Shown here: positions 37,568-59,691 of the stretch, piece after piece
Layout: each line of letters starts with the position of its first letter
Position numbering within the stretch: position 1 is the stretch's first letter
DNA from: an uncultured Dongia sp.
GTDB lineage: Bacteria > Pseudomonadota > Alphaproteobacteria > Dongiales > Dongiaceae
Assembly (NCBI RefSeq): GCF_936916975.1
Contig: NZ_CAKZGO010000016.1
Location: 1 to 64,000, forward strand
Direction: 5' to 3'
DNA: 64,000 bases
Position numbers and translations under genes: made by a program
The notes under the pieces: generated by a model
Seen by the model: the letters and a program-made list of their open reading frames with translations, nothing else
What the model was told of the DNA's origin: nothing
Databases searched by the model: none

Positions 37568-38184
37568 AACGAACGCGCTCCCCCGAAATCTGCCGCAAAA
37601 GAATTCCTGCTGCCGCCGCGAGTTTAACTAGCCCCAGGAAGTGCTGCAATCAGGGTCAAATTTGATAACCTATCGGCATTGGGTTGCAGGGCTGTGACAG
37701 ACGACCCTGAGGCCGGGGCCGCGGGCACATCTTGTCCTGGCCCAAGAGGTTCCGCGAATCTGGCCCCGCTTGCGGGCCATTCGCGTCTGCGGTAAAAGCG
37801 TCATATCCAAATCTCATAGTCGCTTTGGGGGCAGATCGATGACGAGAGATTTCACGTTCGCGACGCCGCAAGATGGGGGAATTGGCGACGCTGGGGGCGC
37901 ATTTGTCATTCTATGACTGGATCGCCGGGGCCGTGCGTCACGATTGGGTGTTCATCCCTAATCACGCAACACCAAGAGATTTTTGGGCTAATGGCAGAGA
38001 CAGATCGTGGTGACCGCTCGCCGGTTGCCGCGGCTTCCCCGTAACGTGAATTCACTTTTTCAGCCCGAAATGCATAATAGACAGTCCACACGGTAAAAAA
38101 ACGAAACGTAAGAGTTACTGGCAAATCTACAGGGAATTGATTGTCGCGGCGGGCATTCCGCTCACCGCCATCAGGGAGGTTCGA
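37568..38184. other. 617-base intergenic region upstream of the polyamine-type ABC operon
   Basis: The longest gap in the window. I find no convincing coding sequence; open frames here have basic, low-complexity products. It must hold the promoters of the divergent enolase-family gene and of the ABC operon. It contains a strong hairpin at 37753-37785 and an AT-rich stretch around 38050-38120 (TTCACTTTTTC, GGTAAAAAAACG), the most likely promoter area. No tRNA-like or recognised riboswitch sequence is seen. Confidence 0.6.
37753..37785. repeat. Extended hairpin in the region upstream of potD
   Basis: CGCGAAT (37753-37759) pairs with ATTCGCG (37779-37785); inside, GGCCC (37762-37766) pairs with GGGCC (37774-37778) around a 7-base loop, with a 2-base bulge. 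This 33-base structure has no T run, so it is a leader-RNA or operator candidate and not a plain terminator. Confidence 0.45.
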
Positions 38185-39351
38185 ATGACAAAAAAGACTT
38201 TAACTTCCGCGCAAGAGACGATGCGTGCTGCAATGGTATCTCGTCGCAAAATACTCCAATCAGCTACAGCGATCGGCGCCGTCGGCCTGACCTCGCCGTT
38301 CCTCGTCAAGAATGCATTTTCATCGTCGGGCGAGTTGAATCTGCTGATGTGGTCGGACGAGTTTCCCGATCCGGTGATCCCCAACTTTGAAAAAGCGACT
38401 GGTATCAAAGTGAACCAGACGCCGTTCTCGCAGAACGAGGAGCAGATCAACAAGCTGCAGGCGACCGGGGGCGAAGGCTTTGATCTCTGCCAGCCGACCC
38501 GCAACCGTGCGCCGCAGTACAAGGATCTAGCCGTGCTGGCGCCGTTCGACACCAATAAGATCAAGAACTCGGGTAATGTCATTCCTTCGTTCCTGGAGAG
38601 CGCCGCCAGCCTGTGGACCTGGGAAGACGGCCTCTATTATGTGCCGCATGTCTGGGGCACCGAGGCGCTGTCCTATCGCACAGACCTCTATCCGGGCGAT
38701 GTCACCAAGCTCAGCTACGGTTCGCTGTGGGATGAAGCCGTGAAGGGGCATACCCAGGGCCGCGGTCACTCCTTCCTGCTCGGCATCGGCCTGTGGTGGG
38801 ATGCGTCGGGCAAGATGCCCTCCAACCGCATGCAGGACGGTTACAAGGACGAAGCGAGCTTCAAGAAGCTGTGGGATCCGATCCTTGCCTTCGCGACCGA
38901 GAACAAGGCCTTCGTGAAGCAGTTCTGGGATTCGGCCGATAACACGAAGTCGGGCCTGATGGAGAACGACGTCTGGATCGGCCAGACCTGGGATGGTCCG
39001 GTTCTGTCGCTGAAGAAGGAAGGCAAGCCGGTCAACTATACCGCTCCGTCCGAAGGTGCCATCGCGTGGCTCGATGGCCTGTCGCTGATGAAGGCGGCGA
39101 AGAACACGGACCAGGTCTATGAGTTCATCAACTACCTGCTGACCCCGGAAGTCTCGGGTCAGTTGGCAGAGGGCTCAGGCTATAACCCGGTCGTCACCGG
39201 CGCTGACGGGTTTACCTCGGACGTCTACAAAAAGAACTTCCAGGATGCCTTCCCGGGCGATGCGCTTAGCAAAGTCTGGCATTGGCCGGCCGAGCCGACC
39301 TGGTACGCGGAAATCCGCAGCCAGTACGTGCAGCAGTTCCAGGCTGCCTAA
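38185..39351 (+). CDS. Polyamine-type ABC transporter, substrate-binding protein (PotD/PotF family)
   Basis: A 388-residue periplasmic binding protein. The N-terminus has SRRKILQ, a twin-arginine-like motif, before a hydrophobic stretch, so Tat export is likely. The mature protein opens ELNLLMWSDEFPDPVIPNFE, with GFDLCQPTRN and YYVPHVWGTEALSYR, then WIGQTWDGPV and PSEGAIAWLDGLSLMK, all typical of spermidine/putrescine binders. The ATG at 38185 is preceded by CAGGGAGG. It heads a four-gene importer operon; a hairpin separates it from the ATPase gene. Confidence 0.92.
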   Translation: MTKKTLTSAQETMRAAMVSRRKILQSATAIGAVGLTSPFLVKNAFSSSGELNLLMWSDEFPDPVIPNFEKATGIKVNQTPFSQNEEQINKLQATGGEGFDLCQPTRNRAPQYKDLAVLAPFDTNKIKNSGNVIPSFLESAASLWTWEDGLYYVPHVWGTEALSYRTDLYPGDVTKLSYGSLWDEAVKGHTQGRGHSFLLGIGLWWDASGKMPSNRMQDGYKDEASFKKLWDPILAFATENKAFVKQFWDSADNTKSGLMENDVWIGQTWDGPVLSLKKEGKPVNYTAPSEGAIAWLDGLSLMKAAKNTDQVYEFINYLLTPEVSGQLAEGSGYNPVVTGADGFTSDVYKKNFQDAFPGDALSKVWHWPAEPTWYAEIRSQYVQQFQAA

Positions 39352-39371
39352 GCCTGATAAGGTTGGATGTG

Positions 39372-39405
39372 GTCAGCCCCGGTTCGCCGGGGCTGACTCA
39401 TTTTT
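39372..39405 (+). terminator. Hairpin with T run between binding-protein and ATPase genes
   Basis: GTCAGCCCCGG (39372-39382) and CCGGGGCTGAC (39387-39397) form an 11-bp perfect stem with a TTCG tetraloop, followed by TCATTTTT. It has the form of an intrinsic terminator inside the operon. Such elements often stop most transcripts after the binding-protein gene, or protect its 3' end, giving more binding protein than ATPase. Confidence 0.82.
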
Positions 39406-39507
39406 GCCGAGAATATCTGCCGGGGTTTGATCCTGCTTGATCTCGCCTGATCTTGGGGTGAAACTCGGCCCAATGATAAAATAAAAAAATAGAGACAGGG
39501 CAAGCAT

Positions 39508-40593
39508 ATGAGCGCGGGCGTCGAGCTTGACCGGGTAACGGTCCGCTTCGGTGAGTTTACGGCTGTCGATAACGCGACACTCGACATCAAGGGCGGTGAA
39601 TTTTTCTCCTTTCTGGGGCCGTCGGGCTGCGGTAAGACGACAATTCTGCGCACCGTGTCGGGTTTCCTTGAGCCAACCCATGGCCATGTGAGGATTGGTG
39701 GCCAGGACATGTCCGGCATCGGCCCCAACAAGCGGCCGACCGCGCTGATCTTTCAGAACCTCGCGCTGTTTCCGCTGATGTCCGTAGCCGAGAATATCAC
39801 CTATGGCTTGCGCGTCCGGGGCGTTGATAAGGCCTCGCGCCGGAAGAAGGCCGACGAATTGCTGGACCTCATCGCGCTGCCGGGGCAGGGCGACAAGCTG
39901 GTCAGCGAGCTTTCAGGTGGGCAGAAGCAGCGCGTGGCGATCGCGCGCGCACTTGCCGTGCAGCCTAAGGTGCTCTTGCTCGATGAGCCGTTGTCGGCGC
40001 TCGATCTCAAACTTCGCCAGCATATGCGCAGCGAGTTGCGCAGTATCCAGCAGAAGGTGGGTATCACCTTCATCTACATCACCCACGACCAGGGTGAAGC
40101 CTTGACCATGTCCGACCGTATCGCGGTGATGAGCGACGGCGTTATCCAGCAGATCGGGGATGGCAAGGCGGTCTATGATGCGCCGACGACCGCATTCGTG
40201 GCGTCATTCGTGGGAGAGAACAATCCGTTTCCGGGCATTGTTGCCCAGGCCGATGACAATTATGCCACCGTAGATACGGCGTTCGGCCGGCTCCGGGGTA
40301 GAAACCCGCGGGGAGCAAAAGCGGGTGACAAAGCCATTCTGTTCGTGCGGCCTGAATCGGCGCGGCTGGGCCAAGGTGAGACCGATACCACGTTCGCCTC
40401 GACCGTGAAGAACGTCGCCTTCGAAGGCAACATGACGCATGTCTATCTTGAGGGTATCGGCAAGAAGGATGTCACGGTGTCTGTCGGGCGCCGCAGCAGC
40501 ATGACTATACCTGCACCGCACGAGGCGACGCCCATCTGCTATGACGCCGAGCTCGGTATCGTCCTGCCGGAAGGGATGCTTGCCCGTGAGTAG
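39508..40593 (+). CDS. Polyamine-type ABC transporter ATP-binding protein (PotA family)
   Basis: A 361-residue nucleotide-binding subunit with intact catalytic motifs: Walker A GPSGCGKTT, Q-loop IFQNLALFPLMS, signature ELSGGQKQR, Walker B LLLDEPLSALD, and switch His in YITHDQGEA. The C-terminal ~120 residues form a TOBE regulatory domain (FVRPESARLG). It energises the two permeases that follow. The permease gene starts inside its last codons (8-base overlap), so translation is coupled. Confidence 0.95.
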   Translation: MSAGVELDRVTVRFGEFTAVDNATLDIKGGEFFSFLGPSGCGKTTILRTVSGFLEPTHGHVRIGGQDMSGIGPNKRPTALIFQNLALFPLMSVAENITYGLRVRGVDKASRRKKADELLDLIALPGQGDKLVSELSGGQKQRVAIARALAVQPKVLLLDEPLSALDLKLRQHMRSELRSIQQKVGITFIYITHDQGEALTMSDRIAVMSDGVIQQIGDGKAVYDAPTTAFVASFVGENNPFPGIVAQADDNYATVDTAFGRLRGRNPRGAKAGDKAILFVRPESARLGQGETDTTFASTVKNVAFEGNMTHVYLEGIGKKDVTVSVGRRSSMTIPAPHEATPICYDAELGIVLPEGMLARE

Positions 40594-41590
40594 CCGCGCA
40601 TTCGTCTTCATTATTCCGGTCATTGTCATCGCCATTTTCTGGGTGATGGCGGTGCGCGAGGCGAAGCGGCGCCCGGACCCGACCCGCAAGGGTTTCTTTG
40701 AGCGCAACGGCGTCGTTCTGGGCAGCGTGTTCATAGCGTTGGTGGCGTTCTGGACCCTGTTCCTGGTCGCCTTGCCATACCTCTATATGGTGGTCGAAAG
40801 TTTCCATCCGGCCTTGCCGCCGATGAAGCGCGGCGGGCCGGACGATGTTGTCACGATCGCGCAGTACAGCTCCTTCGTTGTCAATCCGACCATTGGGGCG
40901 GTCAACTGGCTGCATATGAGCGCGCTGCTGTTCTCGATCATTGCCTCTATCGCGGTGACGGCTCTCAACTTCGCGATATGCTACCCGCTTGCTTACTACA
41001 TGGCGCAGGCTGGCACGCCGCAGAAGATCCGTCTGCTGATGCTGGGGCTGATCGTGCCCTACTGGGTCAACGAGATTCTGCGCGCCTTTTCATTGCGATT
41101 GCTGCTTGCGTCGCGGGGCCTGATCAACCAGGCGCTGATGGGCCTCGACATCACCGATGCGCCGATTGATTTCCTCGGCAACAATACCGGCCTCTATGTC
41201 GGTCTTTCTTATGCCTATCTCCTGGTGATGATGTTCCCGCTCTACAATGCGATAGAGAGCCTCGACAAGAACCAGATCGAGGCCGCGCGCGATTTAGGGG
41301 CGCCGTGGTGGCGCATCCATAGGGACGTCGTCATCCCCTATGCCAAGCCCGGCATCGCGTCTGGCTGCACGATGGTCTTCATGCTATCGGTTGGGTCGCT
41401 GGCGGCGCCGCAGTTCCTGGGTGGTCCGCGGACGCTGTGGTTCACGGCAGTCATCTACGATTTCTTCTTCCAGAGTTTCAACTGGCCGCGTGGTGCCGCC
41501 TACGCGTTCATCATGCTGATAGTCTGCATTGCCTTGGTCATGGCCATGCTCCGTCTCTTCAAGGTATCCCTTGGGGAGGCCATAAAATGA
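40586..41590 (+). CDS. Polyamine-type ABC transporter permease (PotB family)
   Basis: A 334-residue inner-membrane permease with six or seven hydrophobic segments. The coupling (EAA) loop is EAARDLGAPWWRIHRDVVIP. The long first periplasmic loop and NEILRAFSLRLLLASRGLINQAL region are typical of PotB/PotH proteins. I start at the GTG at 40586, 9 bases after GGAAGGG and overlapping the ATPase stop; the frame extends upstream but without family resemblance. Its TGA overlaps the next ATG by four bases. Confidence 0.93.
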   Translation: MSSRAFVFIIPVIVIAIFWVMAVREAKRRPDPTRKGFFERNGVVLGSVFIALVAFWTLFLVALPYLYMVVESFHPALPPMKRGGPDDVVTIAQYSSFVVNPTIGAVNWLHMSALLFSIIASIAVTALNFAICYPLAYYMAQAGTPQKIRLLMLGLIVPYWVNEILRAFSLRLLLASRGLINQALMGLDITDAPIDFLGNNTGLYVGLSYAYLLVMMFPLYNAIESLDKNQIEAARDLGAPWWRIHRDVVIPYAKPGIASGCTMVFMLSVGSLAAPQFLGGPRTLWFTAVIYDFFFQSFNWPRGAAYAFIMLIVCIALVMAMLRLFKVSLGEAIK

Positions 41591-42465
41591 CCTCGAAAAT
41601 GATCATGCGCGGGATGATCGGGTTCTACATCCTGCTGTTCTTCGGCTATCTGTTCGGCCCTCTGGCCGTAATGGGTATCACCGCGTTCAATACGCCCAAC
41701 TATCCGCAGGCCTATCCCTTTGAGGCCTTCACGCTCGATTGGTTCGTGAAGCTGTGGAACCACCGTTCCATGATGGACGGGCTGAAGAACTCGATCATCA
41801 TCGGTATCGGGGTGGTGGCCATATCGGTGCCGGTGGGCCTTGCGGCGTCGATTATCATGAGCCAGATCTATCACCGCGCGCGCGGCCTCTATTATCTGGT
41901 GACGATTTCGCCGTTGCTGACCCCAGGGGTCATTATCGGCATTTCGACGGTGATTTTCTGGAAAGACGTGATGAGCGTCACCGATCTTACAAAGGGATTG
42001 TTCTACAAAGGCATCATCCTGACGATCCTTGGCCAAGCGAGTTTTGTCTCGGCCTATTGCTTGCTGATCTTCATGGCCCGCCTCACGCGCTTCGATCGTG
42101 CCCAGGAGGAGGCAGCTCTCGATCTCGGCGCCTCCTACCCACAGGTCTTCTGGCACATCCTGCTGCCCTACCTGAAGCCGGCTGTCGTTTCGGCCGTGGT
42201 CATCGGCTTCCTGTCGTCCTTCGAAAACTACAACACGACCACCTTCGCCATATTGGCTGACAAAACGTTGGTGACCGTCCTGGCGGGCGAGGTACGGCAG
42301 GGCACGACGCCGGCCCTATCGGCGCTGGCGGTCATTATCATCGGTATCTCGCTGCTAGGCGCCATCGGCTATGAGATCGCCAAACGCCGGGAGCAGACCC
42401 GCGCCGACCGTGCTTACCGGCAGGCGCAGATCGCGGAGCGCGATGAGGTCGAGGCCATAGCGTAG
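41587..42465 (+). CDS. Polyamine-type ABC transporter permease (PotC family)
   Basis: A 292-residue permease, the second membrane subunit. Six hydrophobic segments are visible. The coupling loop is EEAALDLGASYPQVFWHILLP; FLSSFENYNTTTF is typical of PotC/PotI. It starts at ATG 41587 within ATGA, overlapping the PotB stop. The tail is charged and cytoplasmic. It ends the importer operon, 105 bases before the MocR-type regulator on the same strand. Confidence 0.94.
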   Translation: MTSKMIMRGMIGFYILLFFGYLFGPLAVMGITAFNTPNYPQAYPFEAFTLDWFVKLWNHRSMMDGLKNSIIIGIGVVAISVPVGLAASIIMSQIYHRARGLYYLVTISPLLTPGVIIGISTVIFWKDVMSVTDLTKGLFYKGIILTILGQASFVSAYCLLIFMARLTRFDRAQEEAALDLGASYPQVFWHILLPYLKPAVVSAVVIGFLSSFENYNTTTFAILADKTLVTVLAGEVRQGTTPALSALAVIIIGISLLGAIGYEIAKRREQTRADRAYRQAQIAERDEVEAIA

Positions 42466-53432: not shown

Positions 53433-53764
53433 AGAATCTTGCCCGGGAAAGGATTGCGTCCGGTGCGATCTTCGATCTCGACCACCCAGAGATCGGGATC
53501 GCGCTGGACCGATCGTGCAATGTAGGAATCGGCATCCGCTTCGTTCATCAGCGCGCCGCTTTGCACCGGCAGCCAGGCGATTTCACCTTCTTCGTCTCGT
53601 GTCTGCGTCAGCAGCTTGCAGCCGGGTCCAAGCAGATTGAGTTTGATCAGAATGGCGCCGCCCCAGGCGTCACCCTTATGGGCAACGACAGCTGTCAGTC
53701 CCAGCGAGAAGCATTGCCGCACATGGCCCTGGACGAAGAGTTCAGTCGAGAGCCGGTCGGTCAC
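53429..53764 (-). CDS. DUF1491 family protein
   Basis: A 111-residue protein of the alphaproteobacterial DUF1491 family, function unknown. Characteristic parts: LSTELFVQGHVRQCFSLGL, GDAWGGAILIKLNLLG, and the C-terminal RDPDLWVVEIEDRTGRNP. It is soluble and without known catalytic motifs. The GTG start at 53764 overlaps the stop of the upstream ThDP enzyme gene by four bases (GTGA), so the two are probably translated together. Confidence 0.85.
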   Translation of the reverse strand: MTDRLSTELFVQGHVRQCFSLGLTAVVAHKGDAWGGAILIKLNLLGPGCKLLTQTRDEEGEIAWLPVQSGALMNEADADSYIARSVQRDPDLWVVEIEDRTGRNPFPGKIL

Positions 53765-55449
53765 GCCTTCTGTGCCTTGAGGGCTGCTTCACGCAGGTCG
53801 GTGAGCGACGCCTTGGGGGTGATCGCTTCTGGGTCGAGCCGCAATTCGAGCAGCGCCGGTCTGCCGGCGGCAAGCGCGCGTTCAAAGGCTGGCGCAAACT
53901 CGGCCGTCTTCTCGACCAGCTCAGCATGGGCGCCATAGGCTTTGCCGAGTGCCACAAAATCCGGATTGTGAAGCTCAGTGCCGCTGACGCGGCCGGGATA
54001 GGTCTTTTCCTGATGCATGCGGATGGTGCCGTACATGCCGTTATTGATCACCAGAAACACGGCATTGGCGCCGTATTGCACGGCGGTTGCCAATTCCTGG
54101 CCGTTCATCATAAAGCAGCCGTCGCCATTGAAGGAGACGACGATGCGCTCTGGTGCCGCGAGCTTCGCCGCAACCGCGGCCGGCACGCCATAGCCCATTG
54201 ATCCGTTGGTCGGCCCGAGCTGTGACCGGTATTTGCGATACTGGTAGAAACGATGGCTCCAGGTCGCGTAATTGCCGGCGCCGTTGGTGAGGATGGCATC
54301 TGCCGGCAGGCGCTCACGTAACCAAGCCATGATGTCGCCCATCTGCAGGCTGCCTGGAATGGTACCGTGCTTGATGTTCTCAAGATAGTCGGCGCGGGCA
54401 CCCACCGTCCAATTGTCCCAGGCCTTGTGGTCGACCGGACCCATTTTCCGCACGGCACGGGCAAAAGCCGCCATGCCGCTGTTGATCGGCAACGCCGCCT
54501 GATAGACGCGACCCAGTTCTTCGGCGCTGGCATGCACGTGAACGAGCTTCTGCGCCGGCACCGGAATATCGATCAGCGTGTAGCCCGAGGTCGTCATCTC
54601 GCCAAGGCGTGCGCCAACGGCAATCAGAAGGTCACTCTCGCGGATGCGCTGCGCCAGTTTCGGATTGATGCCGATACCGACATCGCCCACATAGTTGGGC
54701 AGCGTGTTGTCATAGAGATCCTGGCAGCGGAAGGCGCAGCCGATCGGCAGATTGTTGGCTTCGGCAAAGATGCGGATGTCGGCCACGGCCTCGGCATCCC
54801 AGCCGCCGCCGCCGAGAATGACGAGTGGTCGCTGCGCCTTGGCGAGCATGGGGCGGAAACTCGCCATGTCTTCCTCGCCAGGATGGGCGCGGCTCACCTT
54901 GTAATGCTCGGCATCGCCAACTTCGACCACATCGGTCAGCATGTCTTCCGGCAAGGCCAGCACGACCGGGCCCGGCCGACCGTTGACGGCGCGGTGAAAT
55001 GCCTGGCTCACCAATTCGGGAATGCGATGCGCGTCGTCGATTTCTGCCACCCATTTCACCATCGGGCCGTACATCCGGCGGAAGTCGATCTCCTGAAAGG
55101 CTTCACGCTCGACTTGGTCGCGAGCGACCTGACCAATGAACAGGATCATCGGCGTCGAATCCTGGAAGGCCGTGTGAACGCCGACCGAGGCATTGGTGGC
55201 GCCGGGGCCGCGCGTCACAAAACAGATACCAGGCTTGCCGGTGAGCTTGCCATAGGCGTCGGCCATGTAGGCGGCACCGCCTTCCTGGCGGCAGACGATC
55301 AGCTTGATCTTGTCCTTGGAATCATGGAGTGCGTCGAGGGCGGCGAGATAGCTTTCCCCAGGAACGCAGAATGCCATCTCCACTCCGTGGGCGATCAAAG
55401 CATCGATCAGGATTCGGCCGCCATTGCGGGGTTTCACGTTCTTGGTCAT
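53761..55449 (-). CDS. Thiamine-diphosphate enzyme, acetolactate synthase-like large subunit
   Basis: A 562-residue ThDP enzyme of the acetolactate synthase/benzoylformate decarboxylase superfamily. The catalytic Glu is expected in FCVPGESYLAALDAL (GES); RQEGGAAYMADAYGKLTGKP and FVTRGPGATNASVGVHTAFQ are the shared PYR-domain blocks. The ThDP motif runs from SFNGDGCFMMNGQELATAVQ to an NN in FLVINNGMYGTI. No small regulatory subunit gene is adjacent, and the sequence GMYGTIRMHQEKTYPG suggests a non-IlvB member. The reaction cannot be given. It is upstream of DUF1491 and downstream of the amidase. Confidence 0.87.
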   Translation of the reverse strand: MTKNVKPRNGGRILIDALIAHGVEMAFCVPGESYLAALDALHDSKDKIKLIVCRQEGGAAYMADAYGKLTGKPGICFVTRGPGATNASVGVHTAFQDSTPMILFIGQVARDQVEREAFQEIDFRRMYGPMVKWVAEIDDAHRIPELVSQAFHRAVNGRPGPVVLALPEDMLTDVVEVGDAEHYKVSRAHPGEEDMASFRPMLAKAQRPLVILGGGGWDAEAVADIRIFAEANNLPIGCAFRCQDLYDNTLPNYVGDVGIGINPKLAQRIRESDLLIAVGARLGEMTTSGYTLIDIPVPAQKLVHVHASAEELGRVYQAALPINSGMAAFARAVRKMGPVDHKAWDNWTVGARADYLENIKHGTIPGSLQMGDIMAWLRERLPADAILTNGAGNYATWSHRFYQYRKYRSQLGPTNGSMGYGVPAAVAAKLAAPERIVVSFNGDGCFMMNGQELATAVQYGANAVFLVINNGMYGTIRMHQEKTYPGRVSGTELHNPDFVALGKAYGAHAELVEKTAEFAPAFERALAAGRPALLELRLDPEAITPKASLTDLREAALKAQKA

Positions 55450-55533: not shown

Positions 55534-56946
55534 TTACAAGGATGGTCGTTTGGCGGCCCAAGGTTGCAGCTTTTCCAGCGCCGCCCCTAGACCCAGGACG
55601 CCCAGATCGTCATGGCGCCGGCCGATGATCTGCAGGCCGATCGGCAGCTTGTCGCTGGTGAAGCCTGCGGGTACGGATAGTGCCGGACAGGGACTGACGA
55701 AATTCCAGACCGACGTGAAGTCGAGGGCATGGTAGCGGCCCTGTGCGTCGAGCTGCCAGTATTCGGCATCGTTGCGGCCGACCTTGGCCGCCGGCTGGCA
55801 CATCGTGCCGGTGAGGATCGCCTCATTGCGGGCCAGGATTGGCTGGATCTCGCCCCACATGCGGGTACGCACGATCTCGATCTTCTTGAACTCGACGGCG
55901 TTCATGGCGAAGCCCGCTTCCATCAAGCGCACCACATTGGGGTCCATCTGGGCGCGATAATCCTTCAGCACGTGGCCGAAGAACGTCGCAAGATAGACGC
56001 CCCAATGCTGGCTCCATAGATCGTCTTCGTCCTTGCCCCAAGGCAGCGAAACCTCCTCGATGATGGCGCCCTGTTTGGCGAAGAGATCGGCCGCCTGTCG
56101 TACGGCAGCCTCGACCTCCGGGTTCCAGACATGATTGCCGACATTGAGCAGCAAGGCGAGGCGCCGACCTTTGAGATCGCTGGGGAGTGGCGCCCCAAAA
56201 TCGAGAGCCGGTTGCAGCGATTGGATGTCGCGTTCATCCGGTCCCTGCGTGATCTGCAGAAACAGGCAGGTGTCGGAGATCGTGCGTGCCAGCGGACCGA
56301 AATGCGAGATCTGGTCGAACTGGCTAGGCAGGATGGTGAAGGGGATACGCCCAAAGCTCGGCTTCAAGCCGACAATGCCGCAGAAGCTGGCTGGAATCCG
56401 CACCGAGCCGCCCATATCTGAGCCTTCGGCAAACGGCACGCAGCCACTGGCCACCGCAGCGCCCGACCCACCCGACGAGCCGCCGGCGGTGCGTTCCGTA
56501 TTCCAGGGGTTACGCGTGATGCCCCAGAGCGGGCTTTCGGTGAAACTCGAATAGGCGAACTCCGGCGTCGTGGTCTTGCCGATGAGGATACCACCGGCCT
56601 TGGCCAGAGCCTCGGCGATCGGTGCGTCATGATCCGGTACCCAATGCTCGTAGGCGAAGGAACCCAACGTCGTACGCTTGCCCTTGGTCGGCGTCAGATC
56701 CTTGAGCGCGTAGGGGACGCCGTGGAGCGGGCCGCGAAACTTGCCGGCTTCGGCCTCGGCCTCCATCACTTTGGCCAGCGCCAGCGCTTCTTCCGGATAG
56801 ACGAAGCAGAAACAATTGAGAGCCGGGTTGACCTCCGCGATCCTCGCCAAGGCGTTGCCGACCAGCGTCACGGGCGACAAGGTACCTGCGCGAATGCGGG
56901 CAGCGAGTTCGGTTGCGGGGGTAAAGCAGAGGTCGAGATCGGTCAC
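55534..56946 (-). CDS. Amidase signature-family protein
   Basis: A 470-residue amidase. The Ser-cisSer-Lys triad is visible: Lys in GVPYALKDLTPTKG, the Gly/Ser-rich GGSSGGSGAAVASG, and the nucleophile Ser in SDMGGSVRIPASFCG. Length and layout match AS-family amidases such as those acting on indole-acetamide, acylated amines or Glu-tRNA (GatA), but no gatC or gatB is nearby, so it is a catabolic amidase of unknown substrate. It starts with GTG at 56946, two bases after the stop of the upstream permease; the transported compound may be its substrate. Confidence 0.88.
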   Translation of the reverse strand: MTDLDLCFTPATELAARIRAGTLSPVTLVGNALARIAEVNPALNCFCFVYPEEALALAKVMEAEAEAGKFRGPLHGVPYALKDLTPTKGKRTTLGSFAYEHWVPDHDAPIAEALAKAGGILIGKTTTPEFAYSSFTESPLWGITRNPWNTERTAGGSSGGSGAAVASGCVPFAEGSDMGGSVRIPASFCGIVGLKPSFGRIPFTILPSQFDQISHFGPLARTISDTCLFLQITQGPDERDIQSLQPALDFGAPLPSDLKGRRLALLLNVGNHVWNPEVEAAVRQAADLFAKQGAIIEEVSLPWGKDEDDLWSQHWGVYLATFFGHVLKDYRAQMDPNVVRLMEAGFAMNAVEFKKIEIVRTRMWGEIQPILARNEAILTGTMCQPAAKVGRNDAEYWQLDAQGRYHALDFTSVWNFVSPCPALSVPAGFTSDKLPIGLQIIGRRHDDLGVLGLGAALEKLQPWAAKRPSL

Positions 56947-56948
56947 GA

Positions 56949-57761
56949 TCAGTATCCATTCCAGACATGAGGCAGGCGACGAAGCCGACGGGTCACCACA
57001 ACCAGCAGGACCACATCAATGAACCCCATCAGGGCAACGAGAGCATGATAGAGCGGAGAGGCGTTCTGGGCGACACCGGAGAGGATAGCGCCGGGCAGCA
57101 GCACGGCGTCACCCGACAGGGCATTGCCGAGATAAAAATCTCCCAGCGACAGGATGAATGCCAGCAGCCCGCCAAAGGCAGCGTATGGGCGCAAGCTCGG
57201 CCAAATCAGGCGCCGGAAGATCGTGATCTCGTCGGCACCGGCCTCGAGAGCGGCTTCCCGCCAATGCGGATCAACCTGGCGCCAGCCAAGGCACAGGATT
57301 GCCGCCACCAGGGGGGCGGCAATGGCAGCCTGGCTCACGGCCACAAGACCGAGGCCCAGCGCATTGCCGCCCCATTGCGCGAGCTTGAGGCAAGCGAGGA
57401 GAAAGAGTGTCCCGACGCCAAAGCGCGGCAACAGGAAAGGCAAGGCCGAGATCGCCACCAGGGACATGCGTCGCTCAGCCAGCCAGTGCCGCCAGAGAAA
57501 CGACAGGCACAGGCCCCAGGCCGAAGCAAGCATTGCCACGAGGATGGCAATGAGCGGGGTTTGCAGCATTGCCGGCATGATACCGGCTTCCTTGGCGAGG
57601 GCTGCCATCAACTGGCCCGTATCGGCGACGAGGAAGATACCGAGGCTGTAATAGAGCCCGAGACCAAAGATGGCTGCCACCGGCAGCAGCAGGAACAGCG
57701 CCAGCAGCAAGGCAAGGATCTGCATGATCCAGGATGGTGCATGGTTGATGCGACGGATCAC
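56949..57761 (-). CDS. ABC transporter permease (PotC/PotI-like)
   Basis: A 270-residue membrane protein with six hydrophobic segments. The coupling loop is REAALEAGADEITIFRRLIWP, and SLGDFYLGNALSG near the end is typical of polyamine/spermidine-type permeases. The GTG start at 57761 overlaps the stop of the upstream permease (GTGA). It pairs with that permease to form the membrane part of an importer whose ATPase subunit (58594-59691) is degenerate; no binding-protein gene is in the window next to it. Confidence 0.88.
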   Translation of the reverse strand: MIRRINHAPSWIMQILALLLALFLLLPVAAIFGLGLYYSLGIFLVADTGQLMAALAKEAGIMPAMLQTPLIAILVAMLASAWGLCLSFLWRHWLAERRMSLVAISALPFLLPRFGVGTLFLLACLKLAQWGGNALGLGLVAVSQAAIAAPLVAAILCLGWRQVDPHWREAALEAGADEITIFRRLIWPSLRPYAAFGGLLAFILSLGDFYLGNALSGDAVLLPGAILSGVAQNASPLYHALVALMGFIDVVLLVVVTRRLRRLPHVWNGY

Positions 57762-58594
57762 GCGGCACCGCCTTGCCTGTGCCGGGCCAGCAGCATGACC
57801 AGCAATGGCAGGATGGCCAGACCGAACATCAGCAACAGCATGACGGCGGCATAAGGCCAGCCGGTCTCACTTTCGAGTGCGCGCTGCAGCCATTCGGTGG
57901 CCTGCTGGAAATCACCGCTGCCGAGCAGGCGCGGCTCCAGGAAGTTGCCGATCGAGCCACAGAACACGATCGCTGCTGTGAATAGGACAAGACGACGGTT
58001 GAGCGGCCACAGGATGCGCCGTAGCAACACGAAAGTTGTGGCGCCACATTCCCGCGCCGCGGTCAGGATAGCGCGGTCGGTGCGGGCAAAGCCGAAGGCC
58101 AGGCAGAGGATTGCCATCGGCAGCCAGGCGTGCAGGCTGGCAATCAGTTCGGACGGAAATCCGGCCAGTAGGCCCACTGGCACGAAATCAACCAGGGCCA
58201 GGTATTTGAAGGCCTGCATCCAGCCCAGGATGCGCATGCCAGGATCGAAGAACCACACCATGAGAACGATGGCGAGAGTCAGCCGCCCCAGGAATTTGCC
58301 GCGAATGCCGATCAGATAGGCAAGCGGCGTTGCGAGCAATAATGACGCCAGCACTGTAAGGCCAGCAAGCAGCAGGCTGTTGAGCAACGCCATGCGTGCT
58401 TCGGGTGAGCCAAGGACGCTCAGCCAGGCCGTCGGCGTCAGCGCGACATTGGCATCGGGCGCGCCTTGCAGGCTGAGCCAAAGCACCAGCAGCAGCGGCG
58501 CCCCGAAGAGCAGGATCTGCGCGGTGACCGCGACCCAGGCAAGTCCCGCCAAGGGACCACGCAAGGGCGAATCTGCCTTTCTGTTGGCCGACAT
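57758..58594 (-). CDS. ABC transporter permease (PotB/PotH-like)
   Basis: A 278-residue permease with about six hydrophobic segments. The family pattern WFFDPGMRILGWMQAFKYLA and a coupling-loop region RTDRAILTAARECGATTFVL (an EAA-like helix with Glu-Cys-Gly) followed by LLRRILWPLNRRLV are visible. I start at ATG 58594, which overlaps the TGA of the ATPase-like gene by one base; the frame extends to 58633. It is the first of two permeases downstream of the ATPase-like gene. Confidence 0.87.
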   Translation of the reverse strand: MSANRKADSPLRGPLAGLAWVAVTAQILLFGAPLLLVLWLSLQGAPDANVALTPTAWLSVLGSPEARMALLNSLLLAGLTVLASLLLATPLAYLIGIRGKFLGRLTLAIVLMVWFFDPGMRILGWMQAFKYLALVDFVPVGLLAGFPSELIASLHAWLPMAILCLAFGFARTDRAILTAARECGATTFVLLRRILWPLNRRLVLFTAAIVFCGSIGNFLEPRLLGSGDFQQATEWLQRALESETGWPYAAVMLLLMFGLAILPLLVMLLARHRQGGAA

Positions 58595-59691
58595 CAGTTG
58601 GCCGGCAACAGAAAGGCGTCGGCGCGATTCCATCCCAGCGTGATGCGTCGGCCGATTTCCAACGGGAAGGGTGCGGGCAACGGGACGTCGGCAATTATAC
58701 CTGGCGGGAAGCTCTCGATGGTGACACGGATCTGGGCGCCGCCACCCCGTGGCATGACGTCGGCGATCGCCCCTTCGGCCAGCATGTCAAAGCGGCGGAT
58801 ACCCAGGAACAGGCGCACGGCTTCGGGCCGCACCAGCATCTGCGCTGGCCCACTGCTCAGCGACAGATGACAGCGATCGCGTCCGACATCACCGCTGCCG
58901 GTCTGCAGCATGGCGCTGCGCAGCATAACTTTGGTATCCAGGACATCGATCTCGATCGGCACTAGGTTACACGGTCCCGCGAGGCGCGCGATGGCGGCAT
59001 TGGCAGGCCGGCCGAACAGCTCTTCTGGCTTGCCGCGCTGTGCTTCCTTACCGTCCACCAGGACGGATATGACATCGGCAACCGCCATCGCTTCCGCAAG
59101 ATCGTTCGTCGCAAGCAACGTGGTCAGGCCAAATTGGCGATGCAGGCGTTTCAACTCAGGCAGGAAGGCGCGCCGTGCTGCCGGCGGCAGCGAATGCAGG
59201 GGCTGTTCCAGCAGCAGCACTTCCGGCTCGCCACCGAGTGCGCGGGCCAGCGCCACGCGCAATTTCTGCTCGGCCGAGAGTGCCTCCGGCAGCAGCGCTA
59301 GCATCTCGGGCGTGATACCGCATTCCTCTGTCAGGCGGTCAATGCGATTCTTGATCTCATCGCGGTCGTGGCCGCGTTGCTCGAGCGGGAAGGCGATATT
59401 GGCAAGCGAACTCAAATGCGGAAAGAGCGCGAGATTAGGCCGCACGGTCATCACGCCGCGTTCGCCGGGCCCGCGCAGGCCGAGATCCTTGCCATCGAGC
59501 AGGATACGGCCGTGCTGCGGTCGCGCGAAGCCAGCGACGAGATTGATCACGGCGTCAGCCGCACGCATGTCAGGGGCGACCAGCGCATAGAGCGCACCGC
59601 GTTCCAGGCTCGCCGAAAATCCGTCGAGGACCGGCCCCGTCGCTCCGCCGACCGTCAGATCACGTAGATCGAGATGCGTCGGCACGGACAT
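58594..59691 (-). CDS. ABC-type ATPase-like protein with all nucleotide-binding motifs degenerate
   Basis: A 365-residue protein colinear with PotA-type ATPases: SASLERGALYALVAPDMRAA, GFARPQHGRILLDGKDL, FPHLSSLANIAFPLEQRG, a TOBE-like C-terminus (LVRPEAVRLFLG). Yet every motif is lost. Walker A GxSGxGKTT becomes APDMRAADA (catalytic Lys to Ala); the Q-loop Gln is gone (TVRPNLALF); signature LSGGQ becomes LSAEQKLR; Walker B LLLDEP becomes LLLEQP (catalytic Glu to Gln); the D-loop LSALD becomes LHSLPP; the switch His is Asn (LLATNDLAEA). The frame is intact and long, so it is not an obvious pseudogene. It precedes two permease genes. ATP hydrolysis is not expected. Confidence 0.85.
   Translation of the reverse strand: MSVPTHLDLRDLTVGGATGPVLDGFSASLERGALYALVAPDMRAADAVINLVAGFARPQHGRILLDGKDLGLRGPGERGVMTVRPNLALFPHLSSLANIAFPLEQRGHDRDEIKNRIDRLTEECGITPEMLALLPEALSAEQKLRVALARALGGEPEVLLLEQPLHSLPPAARRAFLPELKRLHRQFGLTTLLATNDLAEAMAVADVISVLVDGKEAQRGKPEELFGRPANAAIARLAGPCNLVPIEIDVLDTKVMLRSAMLQTGSGDVGRDRCHLSLSSGPAQMLVRPEAVRLFLGIRRFDMLAEGAIADVMPRGGGAQIRVTIESFPPGIIADVPLPAPFPLEIGRRITLGWNRADAFLLPAN

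Follow-up and report, generated by a model that had tools for sequence, protein, structure and literature searches.

An ATP-binding cassette importer operon in Dongia whose ATPase subunit has lost every nucleotide motif

What can an ATP-binding cassette (ABC) importer do once its ATPase subunit has lost every motif that handles nucleotide? The question is raised by a three-gene operon of an uncultured Dongia sp. (assembly GCF_936916975.1), found in the first 64,000 nucleotides of contig NZ_CAKZGO010000016.1, the stretch of DNA analyzed here (the window). Judged from its sequence, this is a real, conserved pseudo-ATPase importer operon and a variant of a known importer type. It probably does something other than ATP-driven pumping, because the parts expected to hold or hydrolyze ATP are gone and related species have preserved this condition. 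The genes and segments considered are as follows; the gene coordinates and frames given in the initial annotation are correct, and all three genes are on the minus strand.

58594..59691, minus strand: pseudo-ATPase subunit of PotA/MalK type with a TOBE domain, 365 amino acids (aa); all nucleotide motifs lost
59545..59577, minus strand: degenerate P-loop, codons 39-49; within the most diverged stretch of the protein, near-neutral
59383..59436, minus strand: segment after the Q-loop, codons 86-103; constrained, with the preceding Q-loop Gln lost and Arg84 fixed in 6/6 carriers of the operon
58603..58851, minus strand: C-terminal regulatory (TOBE) region, codons 281-363; FLGIRRFD is among its lineage-specific fixed residues
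57758..58594, minus strand: permease 1, PotB-like; closest solved chain PotB 8y5f_B (family profile, E 3.8e-27)
56949..57761, minus strand: permease 2, PotC-like, GTG start; closest solved chain PotC 8y5f_C (family profile, E 2.3e-22)

Loss of the nucleotide motifs

Alignment to intact ATPases and to orthologues upholds all six motif readings with which the initial annotation described the ATPase-like subunit. The P-loop is APDMRAADA, in which Lys45 of Walker A has become Ala and the Walker A glycines and serine are lost as well. The Q-loop Gln85 is replaced by Pro, the signature reads LSAEQ, Walker B is Glu162-Gln163, Asp169 of the D-loop is Pro, and the switch His196 is Asn. Within the same genome we aligned 52 other ATPase loci, drawn from 77 other matches, to a profile of intact ATPases. 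Of the resulting 58 rows, 44 are canonical at all five scored sites, 8 depart at one to three, 5 are fragments gapped at some or all sites, and the window gene alone departs at all five, so the loss is not a matter of chance. Walker A Lys and Walker B Asp are present in every other row that covers those sites.

The operon is found at the same place in six of the seven genus genomes examined, its own included, and is missing from one (G004); the five other proteins are 56-80% identical to the window protein. All six carriers lack every nucleotide motif. Across the six, the Walker A Lys is replaced by A, T, L, L, C and C, and the Q-loop Gln by P, A, A, A, T and A. The first signature glycine has become Ala or Pro and the second Glu; Walker B Asp is Glu, and the Walker B Glu is Q, W, R, R, R and R; the D-loop Asp is Pro or Ala and the switch His is Asn or Asp. 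Three replacements, Arg84, Glu141 and Glu162, are each shared by 6/6. The intact ATPase encoded on contig C4 of the Dongia genome is, across the same six genomes, invariant at 13/13 P-loop, 11/11 signature and 12/12 Walker B positions.

The losses are concentrated in the motifs. Of the 67 columns conserved at 90% or more across 26 intact ATPases, all six carriers keep 28, some of them keep 21, and none keeps the other 18. Not one of the 17 nucleotide-motif columns is kept throughout the six and 11 are missing from every one, versus 28 kept and 7 lost among the 50 non-motif columns (Fisher p 2.4e-5), with the motif columns set by hand from textbook motifs once the alignment had been viewed. The intact set comprises 8 known ATPases and open reading frames (ORFs) from 18 loci picked by pattern (Walker A and SGG present, none dropped), so conservation of the motifs among these ORFs is partly by choice.

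Membership of the family is still recognizable. In Pfam, the window protein scores 35.4 bits for ABC_tran (cut-off 25) and 23.7 for TOBE_2 (cut-off 21), and at E ≤ 0.01 the two domains are found in 6/6 and 5/6 of the orthologous proteins, respectively. The predicted subunit model, built on an alignment of intact ATPases, has a MalK-like fold and aligns with PotA over 347-348 residues (VIA-align), so the likeness to PotA noted initially was fair. The subunit thus has the ABC and TOBE domains and the predicted fold of a PotA/MalK-type protein and lacks the nucleotide motifs. Residues 84-90 match MalK F81-Y87, which forms the cleft for a permease helix according to a passage of PMC7658222. Here, Ala-Leu-Phe is kept in 6/6, Arg stands in place of Phe81, and the Gln is gone, a pattern suggesting that the docking site is remodelled rather than lost.

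Selection on the pseudo-ATPase

The pseudo-ATPase frame has no internal stop in 6/6 genomes and the permease frames are open in all six; a lone TAG in the permease 2 match of G005 sits past the end of a 266-aa frame. Whole-gene dN/dS, the ratio of nonsynonymous (dN) to synonymous (dS) rates (Nei-Gojobori, given for 4 of 15 pairs), is 0.163 for G000-G002 and 0.128 for G005-G003, two sister pairs. It is 0.153 for G000-G005 and 0.365 for G006-G001, for which dS exceeds 1 and the estimates are poor. Thus neither mark of a pseudogene, a broken frame or dN/dS near 1, was found. Shared losses in orthologues and dN/dS well below 1 had been named initially as the test for selection on a non-hydrolytic role, and both are observed.

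Constraint is unevenly spread. The ratio of first plus second to third codon-position change is 0.90 at the P-loop, which is near-free (1.04-1.09 for windows starting at codons 39-42), and intermediate at the signature (0.69) and the helical part (0.52). Codons 86-103, 281-316 and 339-363 are constrained (0.28, 0.25 and 0.38, respectively). In the same six genomes the ATPase core has an identity of 0.913 and a dN of 0.064 in the C4 protein against 0.617 and 0.319 in the pseudo-ATPase; the C-terminal domains are alike (0.657 and 0.291 against 0.646 and 0.287). With C4 as the control, constraint on the pseudo-ATPase core is thus reduced to that of the regulatory domain without vanishing.

The permeases and the operon layout

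Both permeases score above the Pfam cut-off for BPD_transp_1 and carry, at the place of the EAA-type coupling loop, ARECGA and EAGADE; they thus have the marks of a type I importer permease pair, with a loop less conserved than in the intact operon. A 32-residue block of permease 1, chosen after viewing the alignment, is invariant at 26/32 positions. It aligns with PotB residues ~222-253, around the spermidine-binding Tyr223 if the numbering agrees as assumed. Permease 2 has dN/dS of 0.10-0.13 in the two sister pairs.

The genes are tightly packed. TGATG at 58596-58592 is common to the ATPase-gene stop and the likely permease 1 start, and for this reason permease 1 probably starts at 58594 and not at 58633, the upstream ATG within the ATPase gene at which its longest ORF begins. 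The five orthologous loci are packed in the same way, their ATPase and permease 1 frames touching or overlapping to within a few bases. The GTG start of permease 2 overlaps the permease 1 stop. There is no second ATPase gene between the flanking genes in any of the six carriers. As the initial annotation stated, no binding-protein gene adjoins the operon in the window, and the next gene, from 56946, encodes an amidase; a distant, shared or unlike binding protein is possible. Three binding proteins used to query the five orthologous loci matched nothing there.

A possible ATP-independent role

The pattern appears to suit a sensor or gated facilitator more than a pump, since the motor is erased while the permease 1 block and a C-terminal domain with new fixed residues are kept. 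We propose that, before the six species separated, a PotABC-type importer akin to that of the intact C4 operon was stripped of its ATP chemistry, so that an old, diverged sister of the C4 importer turned into an ATP-independent complex. The pseudo-ATPase would have kept its place under both permeases, serving in docking and regulation without hydrolysis, and ATP-driven pumping by the complex would have ceased. Ligand, alone or on a shared binding protein, would meet the conserved permease 1 block at the substrate-facing end, and the permeases would relay their state to the conserved C-terminal domain, which would act as an output or gate in place of the motor. As a whole, an ATP-independent complex, with sensing or gated facilitation its most likely use, is our best explanation, held at a little short of an even chance. 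Slightly more doubtful is the fuller statement that a subunit free of nucleotide chemistry occupies both ATPase positions of this type I importer, and that selection keeps the complex for ATP-independent sensing or gated facilitation, the former motor now being a regulatory platform.

Several observations weigh against this proposal. The fold model cannot show the true state of the pocket, because of the intact ATPases on which it was built. Both permeases have changed more quickly than their intact counterparts, with identities, averaged over five genomes, of 0.530 versus 0.895 for permease 1 and 0.667 versus 0.875 for permease 2. Coupling-loop positions are invariant at 8/19 versus 18/19 in permease 1 and 11/19 versus 14/19 in permease 2, and neither loop stands above the remainder of its protein in conservation (p 0.12 and 0.14). 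These rates and looser loops tell against a tightly coupled machine. The permease 1 block is also fully invariant (32/32) in the intact operon, so its conservation is not special here, and the matching outer block of permease 2 is unremarkable (17/31, p 0.18); the permease 1 block is therefore a lead rather than a proof. In addition, dN/dS rises to 0.37 in the G006-G001 pair, placement as sister to C4 is weak (80/53), and the operon has so far been seen in one genus among those sampled.

If the proposal holds, the operon is an example of a pseudoenzyme, one in which a well-studied importer fold has lost its energy coupling in evolution. The intact sister operon of the same cell could then serve as the control for asking what ABC permeases can do in the absence of ATP.

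Alternative explanations

The permeases could instead be driven by an intact, shared ATPase of MsmX type encoded elsewhere, most plausibly that of C4 or PotG, with the pseudo-subunit taking one of two ATPase positions or competing with this ATPase as a brake. Shared ATPases of type I importers are known, as passages of PMC7658222 and PMC11466899 describe for MsmX. C4-type ATPases (E < 1e-150) occur in 10 of 17 genomes of the order, in all 6 carriers and 4 of 11 non-carriers, but these counts, all from a single clade, lack independence. Four of the five other carriers have PotH/PotI-like genes close to the operon (the fifth locus, L015, is too short to reach them), and in the window's own genome such genes are found just past the window. 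Against this, the coupling loop of permease 1 is relaxed and both sites of a mixed dimer would lack a half. Because Walker A and the signature are lost in the same chain, we infer that an intact partner could not restore a normal ATP site. Overall, we consider shared drive unlikely.

Somewhat less probable still is an ATP-independent facilitator or channel for downhill or ion-coupled uptake, in which the subunit merely holds the permeases in shape. The open permease frames, the low dN/dS of permease 2 and the conserved substrate-side block of permease 1 would be expected of it, and solitary BioY, which is said to work without an ATPase module, offers a precedent. By itself, however, this explanation leaves the lineage-specific fixed C-terminal residues unaccounted for, and we know of no type I importer that works as an ATP-independent facilitator.

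Slow decay of a dispensable operon, its function nearly lost and its constraint weak in a gene still unbroken, seems improbable. All three subunits do evolve faster than those of the intact operon, G004 lacks the genes, and no relative was found outside the genus in the samples searched. However, six frames remain open at 56-80% identity and dN/dS is 0.13-0.16 in the two sister pairs, whereas random mutation of one orthologue to the third-position divergence of G000-G002 gave a mean of 5.9 stops and left 5 of 2000 runs stop-free. Among six segments, constraint is weakest at the P-loop, signature and helical part and strong in the three noted above, and the absence from G004 may be primitive, as in other non-carriers.

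The initial interpretation is supported as to selection on a non-hydrolytic role and lacks support as to a specific partner, the intact ATPase at 39508. That ATPase belongs to an operon of its own, which encodes two permeases and a binding protein, and a closer paralogue exists (34-35% identity for the C4 ATPase versus ~30%); we set it aside, and saw no evidence for group translocation, which had also been suggested.

Separately, the importer operon at window positions 38137-42465 is on the plus strand and encodes a binding protein, an ATPase with intact motifs (39508-40593) and two permeases.

Origin and distribution

Carriers have the operon flanked by a small gene (ORF59711) on one side and the amidase gene on the other. 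Among the 11 non-carriers (G004 and G007-G016), YajQ, ORF59711 and the amidase gene stand in the same order in ten; in the remaining one, G016 (L052), ORF59711 is 12 kb distant, at the edge of the stretch, and the L050 stretch stops at a contig end. No ABC gene was found in the stretches read around the amidase gene of these 11 genomes by blastp with the operon proteins and intact relatives (E ≤ 1e-4). Since non-carriers keep the flanking order without ABC genes, the simplest reading is that the genes were inserted in a common ancestor of the six. The neighbors on the amidase side are as follows.

55534..56946, minus strand: amidase, flanking; occupies this position also where the ABC genes are absent
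53761..55449, minus strand: thiamine-pyrophosphate enzyme (PRK08199 family), flanking; also found without the ABC genes in most relatives read

A functional link to these two enzymes was considered and not used, as both occur without ABC genes in relatives. Just past the window, two tandem PotF-like binding-protein genes stand upstream of a PotG-PotH-PotI-like set (L011:3792-6422, contig C16 of G000).

In its own genome, the nearest relatives of the pseudo-ATPase and of permease 2 are both in the intact C4 operon, which has its own binding protein; permease 1 was compared with the C4 and Pot permeases. In the tree the six carriers share one long stem (2.29 changes per column, support 100/100), and in a C-terminal tree they group with the C4 and C22a groups (98/95). 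No orthologue beyond the genus was returned by the full-length profile, either from the order (17 genomes, E ≤ 1e-60, the other matches being C4-type ATPases) or from the class (385 genomes, E ≤ 1e-70). Outside the genus, the permease 2 profile found none in 385 genomes (E ≤ 1e-30) and the C-terminal profile none in 398 genomes of the phylum (E ≤ 1e-15). The class and phylum sets are partly overlapping samples, with 5, 6 and 10 candidates per genome scored, and do not establish absence. A single-protein scan of genome contigs returned one clostridial ATPase at 21% identity, and tblastn against plasmids matched at least 5000 records, all below 60% identity, with the 12 listed at 31.5-34.5%.

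Comparison with known systems

The operon resembles the PotD-PotABC spermidine importer and MalFGK2 in subunit types and in predicted fold over nearly the whole subunit length; it differs in having no working nucleotide motifs and no binding-protein gene found adjacent. As in systems with MsmX-type shared ATPases, its permeases are supplied with no working ATPase by their own operon. Operons served by such shared ATPases are not known to carry an ATPase gene, whereas here a conserved, non-working one is retained. Yeast Ssy1 and Snf3/Rgt2 are non-transporting transporter homologues used as sensors; they belong to different protein families, and the likeness lies in conversion from transporter to sensor, which is a proposal here.

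TM287/288, TmrAB, human ABCC proteins and, among importers, RbsA and NupO also have lost catalytic ATPase residues, and the degenerate ABC systems described in passages of PMC7756269 and PMC11466899 keep one working ATP site. Such transporters retain a consensus site through a second domain. Here, no second ATPase is encoded in the operon and a single chain lacks both halves of the site, so the arrangement is not that of a heterodimer with one consensus site. In word searches of open-access papers, a weak screen by titles and the starts of abstracts, none of the papers listed concerned an importer with a wholly degenerate ATPase.

Two other adjacent ATPase gene pairs in the Dongia genome have partial motif changes. 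In the first (G000:C10:22951-24812; L181, L162) the changes differ between partners: one has ISAGQ, Glu in the Q-loop and Glu in the D-loop, and the other LSNGQ, Asp-Asp in Walker B and Gln at the switch. These may be a heterodimeric pair. In the second (G000:C13:67472-69291; L184, L180), one protein has Thr for the switch His and the other, as placed by the profile alignment, the signature LTADG, and the two perhaps share one consensus site.
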